Positions 55,944 through 61,759 are shown, numbered from the stretch's first letter. The stretch is 64,000 nucleotides of DNA from Fervidobacterium thailandense (GCF_001719065.1 NZ_LWAF01000004.1:62001-126000); one strand, 5' to 3'. The notes: generated by a model from the letters alone, not told the origin. Made by a program: numbers and translations.

Positions 55944-58601
55944 TCAAAAACCACCCATGAACAACGTTGGAGGTAAAGTATGTGGGGACGTGTTGATTCC
56001 TAAATAGATGAAACCATTCGTCCCCTCCAGTTGCTTCATGGGCAACAGTACACCAAGGGATGGGTATAACTTCAAGCCTTGCAGATACATTTCGACGAAG
56101 AAATGCGAATAAAAACCATCGATTAACTCTTCAGACTCTTTCATCCCGAAATTCGCCAAGCCTACCGTAAGTCCAGAATTTTTTATAAGAACGCCGCCAC
56201 CAAATAACTCCGCTCTGTCTTTAAAGAGCGTGAATGCCAAAGATGCGTCATAGAAAACTTTACTTGCATCTTTTAAGTTCAGCTCGAATAAACCTGCAAA
56301 ACTCACGTTCGTGTTCAACGCTGTCAAGAAGTTACCGGAAACAAAATAACTGTCCATGCCAAAAAGTTTGGTGTAATCATCCGCACTTGTGAGTAAGAAA
56401 ACACTCGCACTAACCGGCTTTCCGAAGACATTGCTTCTAAGTCCAAGGCCAAAACCAACGTTCTTAGAATAAACCGCTGGCAACTGGAAATTTCCAACCA
56501 AACTGAACACCGTATCGAGATTATACTCCTCGCTCGACTTGAAACTGGCCGTCAGGATGGGATACAACTTCGTGAGATAGCCGATTTGAACGCTGGGAAG
56601 TTCCAAGGCTAATTGCAAACTGTAATCGTTCGATGGGTAGAGGTAGCTTCCCGAAAATCCCCACCAGTCTTTGTATGTAATAAATCCAACGAATTGTCGA
56701 TAACCTGCAAATTGAAAACTGAATTCCGAAGTATTCGGTTGTAAAAAGTCGAAGATCGGTGTTAGCACAAAAAAGGTGTCGGATTCTACGTTCGTGAACG
56801 TGAATATTACAAATAACGTATGAAGAGCACTCTCCTCATCTTCGAAGAACTGCGGTAAGTACATCGGAGCCCAGGTGACGGGTGTAATAAACTTCGCTAA
56901 ACGGAACTGAAGCTCATTACCTTTGTTAAACGGTTTCTCCGTAATGTCAAACCTGTAGCTCTTTACCGTTGACGGGAGCTCCTCGTAAGGTTCCATCAGA
57001 ACTTTGGTGGTGTAAACTCCCATTCCACCTGTTGGACCGTAGGGTACGTAACTAACGTAATACATATCCTCCCCGACAATGGTGAAATCCATCAAAACAG
57101 TATCGGTGGCAAGTCTGTAAAATTTTCTTTCATTCAGGTCGAAGTAATAAGGAATTACGTAATCTCCCTCCACACGAGAAAACAGCACACCGTCTTTCCA
57201 AGCCTTGACGTACGGTCCCTTCATGTTCGGATCATCTATTCGTGCAACCTCGCTTCTCTTTTCAGGATCAACGAATATTATCTTATTATCGAGTGTTAAC
57301 AAAACAAGAAACTCCCCAGCACACTCCATATACCTCACATAACCGTTGTATTCGAAGATCGATTCTGGAGAATCAACCCGCTCTTTGATTAAAGTCTTCA
57401 ACTTCTTTGTGTCAAAGACTGCGTAGTAAACTTTTCCAGTCTTAACCGCAAAAGCACTGATGTCACCACGTGCAAGCAACCTATTTTTCGTCAAATCCCA
57501 AACTTGATTCTCAACACGTCCCAACTGCACAGACTTCACAAGTGCGTACCGAGTATTACCGTCGAACTTGAGGTCTATTGCGGAAATAGGCTTGGAACCA
57601 GTGGATTTACCACTTCTTGGATCAACAAAAACCACCTCGTTGAACGTTACTCCCAGATACGAAGTAACCGGCCCAAAACTTTCAACCATCAAGGCTAACT
57701 TGCCATCAGTTTCGGGTTTCCCAACATAATCTACTTTCATAAAGGATGCGTTGTCTTGTTTGTACACCAATTTATCATTTCGGTACCTTAATTTAGTGAG
57801 AGACATAATCCAGTCGGTGTAGAGTTCCGAAAATTTCTTTCCAAAAACTTCCTCGTACGGGTCTTTGAGTTCAACGTTCAAAATAGCCTGCAAGCTCGCA
57901 AGTTGAGTTGTTAGTTCGAAGAACTTTCTCATCTTATCAGGCCCATACGTCTCCACAAGGTACTTGTAGAACCCGGCGGTAAAGTTATAGTACAACAATC
58001 CTCCACGATAATCGTCCTCAGGCATGATCTCTTTGTAGGTAAAACTCGGGAAGTTTGGTAACGAGTAGTAATAAAGGGCATTTGACATGAACGGGTTATT
58101 AAGCCTGCCCGAGGCAAGTGAAAAGTTACTCTCAGCGAAAACCGTCGGTCCCTCGATGTACTGACTGTTCAACTGCGGGTAAAAAGGAATACCAGTAAGT
58201 ACGGTTATGATTCTTGACAAAACGTCCTGATACGTCAAATGACACATATGTGTGAACTCGTGAATCAGCAAATATGTGTACCAATCTTCAAGTGGTAAGT
58301 AGAAATGAATCCAACTCTCCGGTGGCCAAACGTACAGCACTATCGTTCTGTGAAACAACGGATTCGTGTACCCGTTACTTACAGTGCCCTTCTCTTGCAG
58401 AACGATATTTATCCGGCCTGGATCGTTGCCGATCATCTCCACTATCGGTTTCCGGATCGTTTCGAATATATTTCCCACGAGGACCGCCACATCGAAATAC
58501 CCTTCTGGATAAACCACATCCGCATGCTCGAAATGAAGAACTCCGGCGAAACTTAAAACAAAGAAAACAATCAAACACAAAACTCCCATCCTATACACCA
58601 C
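55944..58601 (-). CDS. Surface metalloprotease with propeller-like and outer-membrane beta-barrel regions
   Basis: About 885 residues (start probably GTG 58601, 9 bases into the frame, with AAGGAGTG upstream). Signal peptide, then a gluzincin-like domain: LLIHEFTHMCHLTY (HExxH, about residue 118) and YIEGPTVFAES about 36 residues later, supplying the Glu ligand. Residues about 270-560 look like propeller blades (repeated GxxxxVDPxSG / VxxFDLxxRKFY patterns). From about 600 the sequence alternates hydrophobic and polar residues, with Phe at the very C-terminus (LFMGGF), as in outer-membrane barrels. Last gene of the c-di-GMP operon. Substrate unknown; the barrel is an inference. Confidence 0.78.
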   Translation of the reverse strand: MVYRMGVLCLIVFFVLSFAGVLHFEHADVVYPEGYFDVAVLVGNIFETIRKPIVEMIGNDPGRINIVLQEKGTVSNGYTNPLFHRTIVLYVWPPESWIHFYLPLEDWYTYLLIHEFTHMCHLTYQDVLSRIITVLTGIPFYPQLNSQYIEGPTVFAESNFSLASGRLNNPFMSNALYYYSLPNFPSFTYKEIMPEDDYRGGLLYYNFTAGFYKYLVETYGPDKMRKFFELTTQLASLQAILNVELKDPYEEVFGKKFSELYTDWIMSLTKLRYRNDKLVYKQDNASFMKVDYVGKPETDGKLALMVESFGPVTSYLGVTFNEVVFVDPRSGKSTGSKPISAIDLKFDGNTRYALVKSVQLGRVENQVWDLTKNRLLARGDISAFAVKTGKVYYAVFDTKKLKTLIKERVDSPESIFEYNGYVRYMECAGEFLVLLTLDNKIIFVDPEKRSEVARIDDPNMKGPYVKAWKDGVLFSRVEGDYVIPYYFDLNERKFYRLATDTVLMDFTIVGEDMYYVSYVPYGPTGGMGVYTTKVLMEPYEELPSTVKSYRFDITEKPFNKGNELQFRLAKFITPVTWAPMYLPQFFEDEESALHTLFVIFTFTNVESDTFFVLTPIFDFLQPNTSEFSFQFAGYRQFVGFITYKDWWGFSGSYLYPSNDYSLQLALELPSVQIGYLTKLYPILTASFKSSEEYNLDTVFSLVGNFQLPAVYSKNVGFGLGLRSNVFGKPVSASVFLLTSADDYTKLFGMDSYFVSGNFLTALNTNVSFAGLFELNLKDASKVFYDASLAFTLFKDRAELFGGGVLIKNSGLTVGLANFGMKESEELIDGFYSHFFVEMYLQGLKLYPSLGVLLPMKQLEGTNGFIYLGINTSPHTLPPTLFMGGF

Positions 58602-58606
58602 AGTAA

Positions 58607-59560
58607 TCACTCCTTGTCGTCTTTTTGTTCAAACAATTCAGCATTGCGTCCCTTTAGCCGCTTATGTTCGTACATTTTCTTATCAATAGCATCGATTATA
58701 TCTTCTGGCTTTAAGTGGTCTTTGAACTCTTCTGAAGATAGGATACCAAATGAAAAACTGATACCCTCACCCTGACACTTTTTCAATATTCTCTGCATCA
58801 CCTTTTGTGCTTTAAAAGTGTCGGCTTGTGACAAAATCACCACAAATTCATCACCGCCGTACCTGATGATTTTATCCTCTCCCTCCCTCAAACTGCCCTC
58901 CATGATATTTACGAACCTCTTTAAGATGAAATCCCCATAAGCGTGACCATATGTATCGTTAAGCTTTTTAAAGTTGTCCAAATCACAAAACACAACGCTA
59001 AATACCGAACCATAGCGTCTCGCTTTTGCTATCTCGGCTTTTAGATAATCGTCCAAGTACCTTCTATTGTACGCACCTGTCAGCGGATCGTGAAGTGCCA
59101 TTTCTTCGATTTCTCTGTTTTTCCTTATCAGCATACGGTTCATAACCGCAAGTTGTTTTACAATCTCAGCAAGTTGTTCTGCCAGTAACGATTGTTGTTC
59201 CCGAAGTTCCGCAATCTCTTTAGCGTTCTGCCGAATCATGTCCGTTTGTGCAGAAATTATGTTTGACAACTCTGCAACGACATCGCTGTGTCGGAGAACG
59301 ATGATTAATTTCTCTTTGTTGGGCAACACAACTCCGAGAACGCTGAGCAAAATGAACTCGTCCAAATAGTTTAAAACTACCTCAGTATAATATACTCTTT
59401 CTACAGGGAGGTTCAGCAGTAGATGCGCAAACTTTGGGTCTTCGAAAGCTAACCTCGGAACTTGCTGTGCCCACTCCGGCTGTTCGATGCCCGCTAAAGG
59501 AACAAGCTGCCCGTCCTCGTGCATGAAAATCGCTATACCTTCAAAGAACGCTCGCATCAT
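58607..59560 (-). CDS. Diguanylate cyclase (GGDEF)
   Basis: 317 residues. N-terminal sensor-like region (about 1-100) with no named domain, a coiled coil (about 105-150, REQQSLLAEQLAEIVKQLAVMNRMLIRKN), then GGDEF: HDPLTGAYNRRYL, FCDLDNFKKLNDTYGHAYGD, IIRYGGDEFVVILS. The Arg of the RxxD inhibitory site is one residue out of place (REGED before KIIRY-GGDEF), so feedback may be altered. Its start overlaps the B12-binding protein stop as ATGA, and its stop overlaps the protease frame, so the three are coupled. Confidence 0.92.
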   Translation of the reverse strand: MMRAFFEGIAIFMHEDGQLVPLAGIEQPEWAQQVPRLAFEDPKFAHLLLNLPVERVYYTEVVLNYLDEFILLSVLGVVLPNKEKLIIVLRHSDVVAELSNIISAQTDMIRQNAKEIAELREQQSLLAEQLAEIVKQLAVMNRMLIRKNREIEEMALHDPLTGAYNRRYLDDYLKAEIAKARRYGSVFSVVFCDLDNFKKLNDTYGHAYGDFILKRFVNIMEGSLREGEDKIIRYGGDEFVVILSQADTFKAQKVMQRILKKCQGEGISFSFGILSSEEFKDHLKPEDIIDAIDKKMYEHKRLKGRNAELFEQKDDKE

Positions 59561-60582
59561 CTCTCGACACTACCCTTCTCCAGAATCTTTCGAACCTCCC
59601 CCACCCCTTCCCTGAGTCCGGTTGCCGCGAGTACTTTAACACCAGGTAAATCGATTCCCAACAGCACTCTCGCACCTTGACCACCCACAATGATTGGCAA
59701 CGATGGTTTAAAGCTCTTTATTGCTCTGATCATTTCCAACACTTCCAGAAGTCTCGTTCCCAACGTCACAGATATACAAATCAAAGTAACTCGTTGATTT
59801 TGAAGATAACTTCCAAGCTCAGTCTCAGGAGTGTCCGCCCCCAAGAAATCCACGTTGAATCCGTCAAGTTCAAGGGCATCGGCAAACATGCGCGCACCAA
59901 TCGCGTGACGTTCGCTTCGAGGACAGGTGACCAGTACTTTGGGACCCTTCACGTTTAATGGAACGAATCGACCGTACAACTCGGACATTATAAACTCTAT
60001 CACCGCACTCGAATAATGCTCGACGACAATTGAAAGCCTATTCGTCTGCCAAAGGTATCCTATTTCCCAAAGCGAAGGGGTAAAAATGTTCTCGTAAATG
60101 TCGATAAGATTCATACCACCATCAATCATGCGACGTACGAGATCATAGGCACCGGATTTGTCAAAAGAGAGCAAAGCGTTCAAAAATGTCTCCTGGTATT
60201 TTTTAAACCGTTCATCCTTAAAACCTTCGTCAATACCACTTCGACGACCGTACTGCTTTTCGAATTTTTTCAATTTTCTGGTAGCCTGACTTAGCGTCTT
60301 TTGGATCGCTCGCTTCTCTCCCGCAAGTTTTTTCGAGGATTCCGTACAGAACTTCTCTATAAAATTTAGCACCTCTCCGTGATCTTGCCCTCGTGCATTG
60401 AAATAAATGTACAACCATTCCAGCATTTTTTCCAGTAGATCCGAGCCAACAAAAGCCGATATCATCGCACTTTCAAACATCATCTTGACAATCTCGGAAA
60501 TGGTAGAACGTTCAACAGATGTTTTCGCGTTAGAGAAATAATTAATGTTGCGGTTCAAAAAATCAGCAAATTCATGTTGCAA
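59557..60582 (-). CDS. Cobalamin-binding sensor-like protein
   Basis: 341 residues, TTG start (weak ribosome binding site). Residues about 1-115 are helical and unlike a MerR domain. A B12-binding-2 cap follows (about 130-205): SLWEIGYLWQTNRLSIVVEHYSS contains W-x9-EH, the motif of CarH/LitR-type adenosylcobalamin sensors. The Rossmann domain has SERHAIGARM (ExHxxG, where His ligates cobalt), CISVTLG (SxT) and VGGQGA (GG). These residues fit a B12-binding sensor rather than an enzyme. No DNA-binding domain is present; coupling to a GGDEF partner is inferred from the 4-base overlap. Confidence 0.85.
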   Translation of the reverse strand: MQHEFADFLNRNINYFSNAKTSVERSTISEIVKMMFESAMISAFVGSDLLEKMLEWLYIYFNARGQDHGEVLNFIEKFCTESSKKLAGEKRAIQKTLSQATRKLKKFEKQYGRRSGIDEGFKDERFKKYQETFLNALLSFDKSGAYDLVRRMIDGGMNLIDIYENIFTPSLWEIGYLWQTNRLSIVVEHYSSAVIEFIMSELYGRFVPLNVKGPKVLVTCPRSERHAIGARMFADALELDGFNVDFLGADTPETELGSYLQNQRVTLICISVTLGTRLLEVLEMIRAIKSFKPSLPIIVGGQGARVLLGIDLPGVKVLAATGLREGVGEVRKILEKGSVER

Positions 60583-60642
60583 CTCTTCCAGCAGTCCAAA
60601 CCTATTGAAAAAAGTCGTTCACAAGCATCACCACCTAACTTT

Positions 60643-61707
60643 TCAAATGTTCACAACCCTCACCGGTTCCGGTGTCGGTTTTCCAAACAAATAGCCTTGT
60701 GCAAGATCCACTTTGTCCTTGATGAAATCAAATTCCTCGAGTGTCTCCACTCCTTCAGCCAAAACACCAATTCCGGAATCACGTGCTATTTTTACTAAAG
60801 CTTCCAAAACAGCACTCTTTACCTTATCTTCGTGCACATTCCGTATTATTTCCCGGTCGATCTTTATGATATCCGGCTTTAGCTCAACGATAACGTTCAA
60901 GTTCGAGTACCCGCTTCCAACGTCATCCAAAGCCACACGGAATCCCTTGCTCCTATAATAGTCGAGGATACTCTTAAGATGCCTTAAATCTTCAACTTTC
61001 TCACTCTCAACAACCTCGAAAACAAGGTTCTTCGGATCAAGATGAAGCTGTGTAGCCCACTCGACGGTGTCTTTGAGACAAAACTGTGGATCATAAATTG
61101 CTGTAGGCGTGAAATTGATGAAAATCATGTAGTTGTTCAATTTCTTTACCGCCGCCATTTTGACAGCAACCTCGCGGCACGCACGATCAAGGTAAAAAAG
61201 CGTATCGGTTTTCTTAGCACTCTCGAATAACTGGCTCGGAGGAACTATCGAACCGTCCTTTCCAACCCCACGTGCCAAAAGTTCGAACCCCACAACCTTG
61301 TGCTTCCTAACATCGATAACGGGCTGGAAATACACCGTTAACCGGCCATCGGAGAGCATTTCGAGGTATTCCTCTGCTTCAACCAAAGCTGTCCACGTAC
61401 TCAGTGGTTTGAGGGACTTGAACGCGGAAATGGTTAGAGGTACGTTTCTGTCAAGCACCACGCAATGTATATCGTTATATTCGACGTTTGAAAAAATGCC
61501 AGAATTCGTAAGTTTGGCAATAAAAGATTTTAAACTCTCGACCTCGAATCCCAAAAATTCACCTTCGTCTAAGAACTCACACCCATGCTCTCTCAGAAAG
61601 TTCTTAAACTTCTCTTTAATAACGTCCAGAGGAAAAACGCAGAACAACTGTTTCGGCTCGTCCGCAACATATGGTAAAACTTGACACCTTTGGCAGCGCT
61701 CGGCCAT
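60643..61707 (-). CDS. c-di-GMP phosphodiesterase (EAL)
   Basis: 354 residues from ATG 61707 (GGGGGTGATAGGA upstream). An N-terminal CxxC (ERCQRC) is followed by a region of unknown fold to about 110, then a complete EAL domain: VGFELLARG, MIFINFTPTA, LVFEVVESE, ALDDVGSGYSNLN, IIKIDREII, VLAEGVETLEE and AQGYLFGKP. All catalytic metal and base residues are present (loop-6 DDFG is DDVG), so it should degrade c-di-GMP. It is the first gene of the B12-sensor/GGDEF/protease operon, 60 bases upstream of the sensor gene. Confidence 0.93.
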   Translation of the reverse strand: MAERCQRCQVLPYVADEPKQLFCVFPLDVIKEKFKNFLREHGCEFLDEGEFLGFEVESLKSFIAKLTNSGIFSNVEYNDIHCVVLDRNVPLTISAFKSLKPLSTWTALVEAEEYLEMLSDGRLTVYFQPVIDVRKHKVVGFELLARGVGKDGSIVPPSQLFESAKKTDTLFYLDRACREVAVKMAAVKKLNNYMIFINFTPTAIYDPQFCLKDTVEWATQLHLDPKNLVFEVVESEKVEDLRHLKSILDYYRSKGFRVALDDVGSGYSNLNVIVELKPDIIKIDREIIRNVHEDKVKSAVLEALVKIARDSGIGVLAEGVETLEEFDFIKDKVDLAQGYLFGKPTPEPVRVVNI

Positions 61708-61753
61708 TCCTATCACCCCCAAATAAGGACAAAACTGTAAGACTCTCACTAAC

Positions 61754-61759
61754 ATTATA
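61754..61759 (-). promoter_or_regulatory. Probable -10 element of the EAL operon
   Basis: Minus-strand TATAAT in GGTATAATG context, about 50 bases before the EAL start; a TTGATG lies 15 bases further upstream. Confidence 0.55.

Follow-up and report, generated by a model that had tools for sequence, protein, structure and literature searches.

What does a cobalamin (B12) sensor do in the middle of a gene cluster for the turnover of cyclic dimeric GMP (c-di-GMP), and what does it control? This question is raised by a locus in a 64,000-nucleotide stretch of Fervidobacterium thailandense DNA (NZ_LWAF01000004.1:62001-126000; hereafter the window), which lies inside a genome of 2.04 Mb (G000). Four genes follow one another on the minus strand and encode an EAL-domain protein, a cobalamin sensor, a GGDEF diguanylate cyclase and an 888-amino-acid protein with an HExxH motif. 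An earlier interpretation of the DNA alone (the sequence-only reading) had proposed this set; it is real, and Pfam confirms its first three members. The compact packing described there is also present: the sensor and cyclase genes overlap by 4 bases, the cyclase and protease genes likewise, and 60 nucleotides separate the EAL gene from the sensor gene. Our analysis suggests that the locus is, on balance, a split signalling unit of the photocobilin type, in which a stand-alone sensor controls the adjacent cyclase.

The sensor matched the Pfam families B12-binding (1.7e-15) and B12-binding_2 (1.7e-12). Its closest relatives in the PDB were the photocobilins SasPcob (8j2w/8j2x, E 1e-20) and AbDPcob (8j2y), followed by CarH, and a Foldseek search with its AlphaFold model ranked SasPcob, the light-sensing CtMerR domain and TtCarH at the top. 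The whole-sensor model had confident support for the B12 domain only. Inspection of the motifs bore out the W-x9-EH (W178, E188-H189) and ExHxxG (E224-R-H226-A-I-G229) sites of the sequence-only reading, as well as its statement that a DNA-binding domain is lacking: Pfam and NCBIfam family searches found no helix-turn-helix, MerR-type or other DNA-binding domain in the protein. In an alignment of 38 sensors W178, E188, H189 and H226 are invariant. The pattern by which photocobilins are assigned a CarH-type B12 domain, W-x9-EH together with E/DxH, is found in the window sensor, and its motifs are invariant or nearly so in the 38 sequences. A CarH-like repressor was rejected because the sensor has no DNA-binding domain.

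Alternatively, the protein might be a common corrinoid carrier or the subunit of a methyltransferase, located among c-di-GMP genes by chance. It does match the MtgC, MtbC and pyl_corrinoid families weakly, and similar short proteins with a cobalamin-binding domain occur in the phylum; however, its scores against CarH and the photocobilins are far higher in both sequence and Foldseek comparisons, no methyltransferase gene was recognised beside it, and its pairing with signalling genes, which is conserved across phyla as described below, counts against it. A corrinoid methyltransferase subunit was rejected on scores and gene context, and we consider chance placement of such a carrier very improbable.

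The family has a second domain upstream of the B12 domain, which the sequence-only reading had not noticed. We built a profile of the N-terminal region from eight relatives, leaving the window sequence out. It matched allophycocyanins (best E 1.7e-5), with some 30 phycobiliprotein chains among its matches, and it also matched the globin domain of both photocobilins; two family members touched the Pfam family Phycobilisome. Because the profile matches phycobiliproteins and photocobilin globins, the sensors belong to a photoglobin-B12 family with the globin at the N-terminus. The earlier label of a CarH-type sensor thus holds for the B12 domain but not in the sense of a bare CarH that has shed its DNA-binding domain. 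By its sequence the window protein is a predicted domain-swapped, stand-alone photocobilin, with a putative photoglobin N-terminal to a CarH-type B12 domain. Two relatives carry a CxxD motif at the phycobiliprotein attachment site (CRKD in L010 and CLED in L011), to be compared with the CxRD/CxQD motifs of photoglobins (PMC10151467); the cysteine of this motif was not seen in the alignment of the window sensor. As to the bilin-pocket residues of SasPcob (Asp270 and Trp296), the window sensor has W56, which aligns with a tryptophan that is invariant in the 38 sensors, and neither Asp nor Cys was found at the aligned place, where the local alignment is ambiguous.

The sequence-only reading had named the gene order in relatives as a point to be checked, and for the sensor and cyclase the pairing is kept. 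Full-length sensors were found in eight of 103 Thermotogota genomes, and in all eight a GGDEF gene adjoins the sensor gene, in either gene order: in G012 the sensor lies 20 nucleotides ahead of the GGDEF gene, while in G015 the GGDEF gene precedes the sensor gene, with an 8-nucleotide overlap. A ninth genome of the phylum (G082) has a sensor fragment near a GGDEF cyclase. Beyond the phylum, the sensor of a Mollicutes metagenome-assembled genome (MAG; L041) also has a GGDEF partner, and a histidine kinase occupies the partner place in an Armatimonadetes MAG (L039) and a Cyclobacteriaceae MAG (L040). In the class of L041, 25 of 25 sensors have a partner with the shared module (see below) next to them, and those partners that are complete read GGDEF or AGDEF. 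Among the sensors of the L039 phylum, 6 of 7 adjoin module-bearing kinases, two of which match in the coiled-coil half only, and in the class of L040 the count is 4 of 6. Taken together, the four lineages have a module-bearing partner next to 43 of 46 sensors; the output of the partners is GGDEF in two of the lineages and a histidine kinase in the remaining two. Two Bacteroidota sensors (L174 and L175) have no partner gene alongside. The evolutionary unit is the sensor with its neighbor, not the four genes.

The partners of different output share their input side, a module that the sequence-only reading had not noted in the window cyclase. With the catalytic domains removed, the N-terminal parts of the kinase and cyclase partners are homologous (hhalign 99.5%, E 4e-22). 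In both, a PAS-like region leads into a coiled coil that carries the motifs INNEQxNxxR and LNNExxNxxREL. The window cyclase scored 27 bits against a hidden Markov model (HMM) of this module, more than any of 5,000 block shuffles, and matched the module by hhalign with E 2.5e-4; when the whole of G000 was scanned with the HMM, it was the sole match. The module is also matched in a few sensor-less Thermotogota genomes, mostly over the coiled coil alone, and this half is therefore not fully specific. No description of the shared module was found in the accessible literature. The window protein itself is a predicted diguanylate cyclase with an intact A-site; its PDB relatives are the diguanylate cyclases 5llw, 6et7 and 6zxm. 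The canonical RxxD I-site is absent, with R225-EGE-D229 in its place. In the Mollicutes-type class of L041, many partner cyclases (partners of L151-L169) read IAGDEF or ISGDEF, not GGDEF.

How would the two proteins work together? We consider it quite likely, by homology, that the window sensor binds adenosylcobalamin (AdoCbl); His226 would be the lower ligand, and W178 with E188-H189 would cage the adenosyl group. A dark-to-light or bound-to-unbound change of the sensor would then be relayed, through contact between the two proteins, to the N-terminal module of the cyclase and its coiled coil, and this contact would set c-di-GMP synthesis by the adjacent GGDEF domain. The EAL enzyme encoded upstream would supply the opposing activity in the same operon by degrading c-di-GMP. 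PilZ proteins are present and could serve as c-di-GMP receptors. Published photocobilins offer an analogy. In AbDPcob, AdoCbl lowers the dark activity of the cyclase and light raises its turnover more than 10-fold, and stand-alone photocobilins alter the activity and oligomer state of an isolated cyclase domain, AbPcob in a dose-dependent manner (PMC10979010). By this analogy the window sensor likely acts on its own cyclase in trans, while we hold it somewhat doubtful that light is the natural cue.

The two outer genes behave differently in relatives. In the EAL protein the motifs ELL, INF, EVVES, DDVG, KID, EGVET and QGYLFGKP were judged intact by eye in the translation, and among solved structures the protein is closest to 6ifq/6ih1, which are EAL enzymes (E 7e-50); its start is likely at 61707, behind a Shine-Dalgarno (SD)-like site (GGGGGTGATAGGA-ATG). 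The 888-amino-acid protein had no family or structure match in Pfam, NCBIfam or the PDB. Twelve orthologues keep HEF[T/S]H and a downstream EGxTxFxES, so that a gluzincin-like peptidase is a reasonable assignment; the C-terminus appeared barrel-like by eye. Of 61 related genomes, 37 have an orthologue of this protease; they include nearly every member of the family, and just three of them have a full-length sensor. The sensor-cyclase pair lies far from the protease in G015 and G012, and G015 has a 48% identical EAL orthologue at another locus. In G035 the EAL gene stands directly ahead of the protease gene and the sensor is absent. The sister species G001 retains an intact protease (82%), but its EAL gene is cut after residue ~216 and its cyclase gene before residue ~236, at ends that resemble an IS200/IS605-TnpB element (L100 1-940 and L099 1-356; contig ends). 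The sensor was not found in this genome, and the likeliest explanation is that the middle of the operon was lost, although an assembly gap is possible.

The four-gene set is local: the protease occurs in genomes that have no sensor, orthologues of EAL map to other loci and the G001 operon is broken. We rejected the four genes as a conserved unit on the placement of EAL, protease and sensor in relatives. Absence of the gene order from all relatives, which the sequence-only reading had named as grounds for refutation, nearly holds for the set of four and clearly does not hold for the sensor-cyclase pair.

The sequence-only reading had gone further and proposed that cobalamin, by setting c-di-GMP, controls the surface protease. 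Several observations agree with such a pathway. The genes overlap, the EAL-protease neighborhood of G035 persists where there is no sensor, the cyclase-protease junction is retained in the closest species, G001, if only there and within a broken operon, and in F. islandicum grown on keratin c-di-GMP enzymes and proteolysis rise together, which is a correlation only (PMC13157175). On the other hand, nearly all genomes of the family have the protease without a sensor or an adjacent cyclase, pair and protease lie apart in the two genomes named above, and Pfam recognised no known c-di-GMP receptor domain in the protease. We consider a pathway of all four genes, and with it the protease as regulated output, unlikely. 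The protease is a family core gene and here probably a co-transcribed passenger or output. Joint action of the cobalamin sensor and the adjacent cyclase is a reasonable conclusion from the conserved pairing of the two, and its extension to the protease is weakened.

A number of observations weigh against a split photocobilin-type unit. The light-responsive cobalamin-binding domains have the signature GxxW, EH, GxxH and GxxxP (PMC11796333); three of the four sites are present in the window sensor (GYLW, EH and GADTP), but SERH stands for GxxH. Identity between the sensor and its relatives is no more than 23-29%. Its N-domain gave 13.6 bits against an HMM of 37 sequences, a weak match that was above all 5,000 shuffles, and a weak hhalign match of 33 columns with E 0.003. 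AlphaFold (AF2) modelled this domain alone with a predicted local distance difference test score (pLDDT) of 54, and Foldseek returned no significant match for it; we take both results as uninformative. The region appears to be a degenerate globin, barely recognisable in the sequence. Heme oxygenase (PF01126) was detected in positive-control genomes but in none of the six sensor genomes searched, so that a bilin chromophore is unlikely. Finally, the sister species has apparently lost its sensor, and the protein is therefore dispensable.

It could be speculated from these data that the system is decaying and perhaps non-functional in the genus. The divergent N-domain and the truncation of EAL and cyclase at transposon-like ends in G001 would fit, and the start of the sensor gene may be frameshifted. 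Its position is uncertain: the ORF begins with TTG at 60582, and a stronger ATG (Table 1) is one base out of frame. With one T fewer in the intervening T6 run, the predicted N-terminus would be extended in frame to a protein beginning MLVNDFFNRFGLLEELQHEF, and the extra T may be a sequence error, a mutation or slippage. However, the four ORFs in the window are long and open and the catalytic and B12-contact residues are intact, and we regard decay as improbable.

A closer competitor is a sensor of AdoCbl status that works independently of light. In this case the B12 or adenosyl state, redox or thermal Co-C homolysis would set c-di-GMP to the nutrient or anaerobic state of the cell. An ATP:cobalamin adenosyltransferase (PF01923) is encoded in six of six sensor genomes; taken with the absence of heme oxygenase, this makes AdoCbl plausible as a cofactor and biliverdin, by the known route, not. 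The host is probably a heat-loving anaerobe, the sensor lacks a visible CxxD and is off at one signature position (S223), and AdoCbl by itself lowers the cyclase activity of AbDPcob (PMC10979010), all of which are consistent with a status sensor. Nevertheless, the adenosyl-caging tryptophan and EH, which are typical of light-sensing B12 domains, are invariant, and photocobilins respond to green light without biliverdin. This alternative is a serious one, to which we give somewhat less than an even chance. A split unit with a photocobilin-type sensor remains our preferred description of the locus.

The sequence-only reading knew of no described system with this exact set, but similar systems are known: a photocobilin-cyclase fusion and stand-alone photocobilins acting in trans were published in 2024 (PMC10979010), and the core principle therefore has a precedent. 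Control of a diguanylate cyclase by a B12 photoreceptor, including control in trans, is known. AbDPcob of Acidimicrobiaceae (PMC10979010, 8J2Y) resembles the window pair in placing a CarH-type B12 domain and a photoglobin over GGDEF and in its W-EH and E/DxH motifs. It is, however, a single polypeptide whose globin follows the B12 domain, whereas the window has two proteins, a putative N-terminal globin and a separate input module on the cyclase. SasPcob of Saccharothrix syringae (8J2W/8J2X) is stand-alone, has the two domain types assigned to the window sensor and acts on a cyclase in trans in vitro, but its domain order is reversed, it binds biliverdin, and the accessible part of its description reports no paired cyclase gene of the window type. 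CarH/LitR of Thermus thermophilus (5C8D, 3WHP) shares the B12 fold, the adenosyl-caging W and EH, and ExHxxG; the window sensor differs in having no MerR-type DNA-binding domain and a glutamine (Q179) at the position of CarH H132. Photoglobins as reported by Schneider et al. in 2022 (via PMC10151467) are likewise phycobiliprotein-related globins tied to B12 domains in signalling proteins, but the CxQD motif reported there is missing from the window domain.

We found no description of a natural split unit with an N-terminal globin, a common module and interchangeable outputs in four lineages, nor of its bilin-less setting; a 2022 photoglobin study may cover part of this. That study, by Schneider et al., reportedly treats gene neighborhoods. 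By its title, PDB entry 3zta is a stressosome with a diguanylate cyclase, which we take to be that of Moorella, where a non-heme globin sensor presumably acts upstream of c-di-GMP by protein contacts. The Moorella stressosome differs in being STAS-based and in its kinase switch, and it is not known to have a B12 domain. A literature search for a link between stressosome, B12 and cyclase yielded nothing readable on B12.

Table 1. Features of the locus in window coordinates.
Feature	Position	Strand	Basis and remarks
EAL-domain c-di-GMP phosphodiesterase (predicted)	60643..61755	-	PF00563 2.5e-56; alternative start 61707
Stand-alone cobalamin sensor, predicted photocobilin type	59557..60582	-	341 aa counted from TTG; Pfam, PDB, Foldseek
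Sensor residues 1-122, putative degenerate photoglobin (phycobiliprotein-like globin) domain	60217..60582	-	Family profile, shuffles, hhalign
Sensor residues 126-341, helical bundle and Rossmann B12 domain	59560..60207	-	W178, E188-H189, E224/H226, G248-P252
GGDEF diguanylate cyclase, 317 aa	58607..59560	-	PF00990 2.7e-38; RYGGDEF
Cyclase residues 60-154, input module: PAS-like end and NNEQxN-type coiled coil	59099..59383	-	HMM, hhalign
Exported HExxH (gluzincin-like) presumed surface metallopeptidase, 888 aa	55944..58610	-	Motifs conserved in orthologues
Alternative sensor start ATG 60628, SD-like AGGTGG, T6 run 60613-60608	60608..60628	-	Sequence reading

Other B12-domain genes were encountered in the searches. 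In L120, L121, L126 and L168 a short protein (215-230 aa) with a B12 domain and W..EH is repeatedly followed by a MacB/FtsX-like permease; such pairs occur both in Thermotogota and in the L041 class and are possibly a second B12-linked system. Three Nitrososphaerota-type archaeal MAGs (L042, L043 and L044) have a CarH-type B12 domain (WQENK...EH) with an unrelated N-terminus. In Aquimarina and relatives (L045-L073) a MerR-B12 gene of the CarH/LitR type mostly adjoins a phytoene-desaturase-like gene, the classical carotenoid arrangement; these genes can serve as an outgroup control.

Photocobilins are a recent discovery, and the member with demonstrated control over an enzyme is a fusion protein. 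A system in which nature keeps the sensor apart from its effector, and in which one shared interface module serves exchangeable outputs, offers a direct way to test how B12 sensors communicate with enzymes, and the pair is a ready optogenetic part that is possibly heat-stable. More broadly, and quite tentatively, these proteins might represent a widespread two-protein unit: a photoglobin-B12 sensor and a partner that receives the signal through one shared module and has either GGDEF or a histidine kinase as its exchangeable output. In anaerobes the unit would be bilin-free, and the state of AdoCbl, not red or green light, would set c-di-GMP and surface behavior; we consider this general picture rather unlikely as a whole. 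The locus raises the question of why presumed anaerobes without heme oxygenase retain a B12 sensor of the photoreceptor type.

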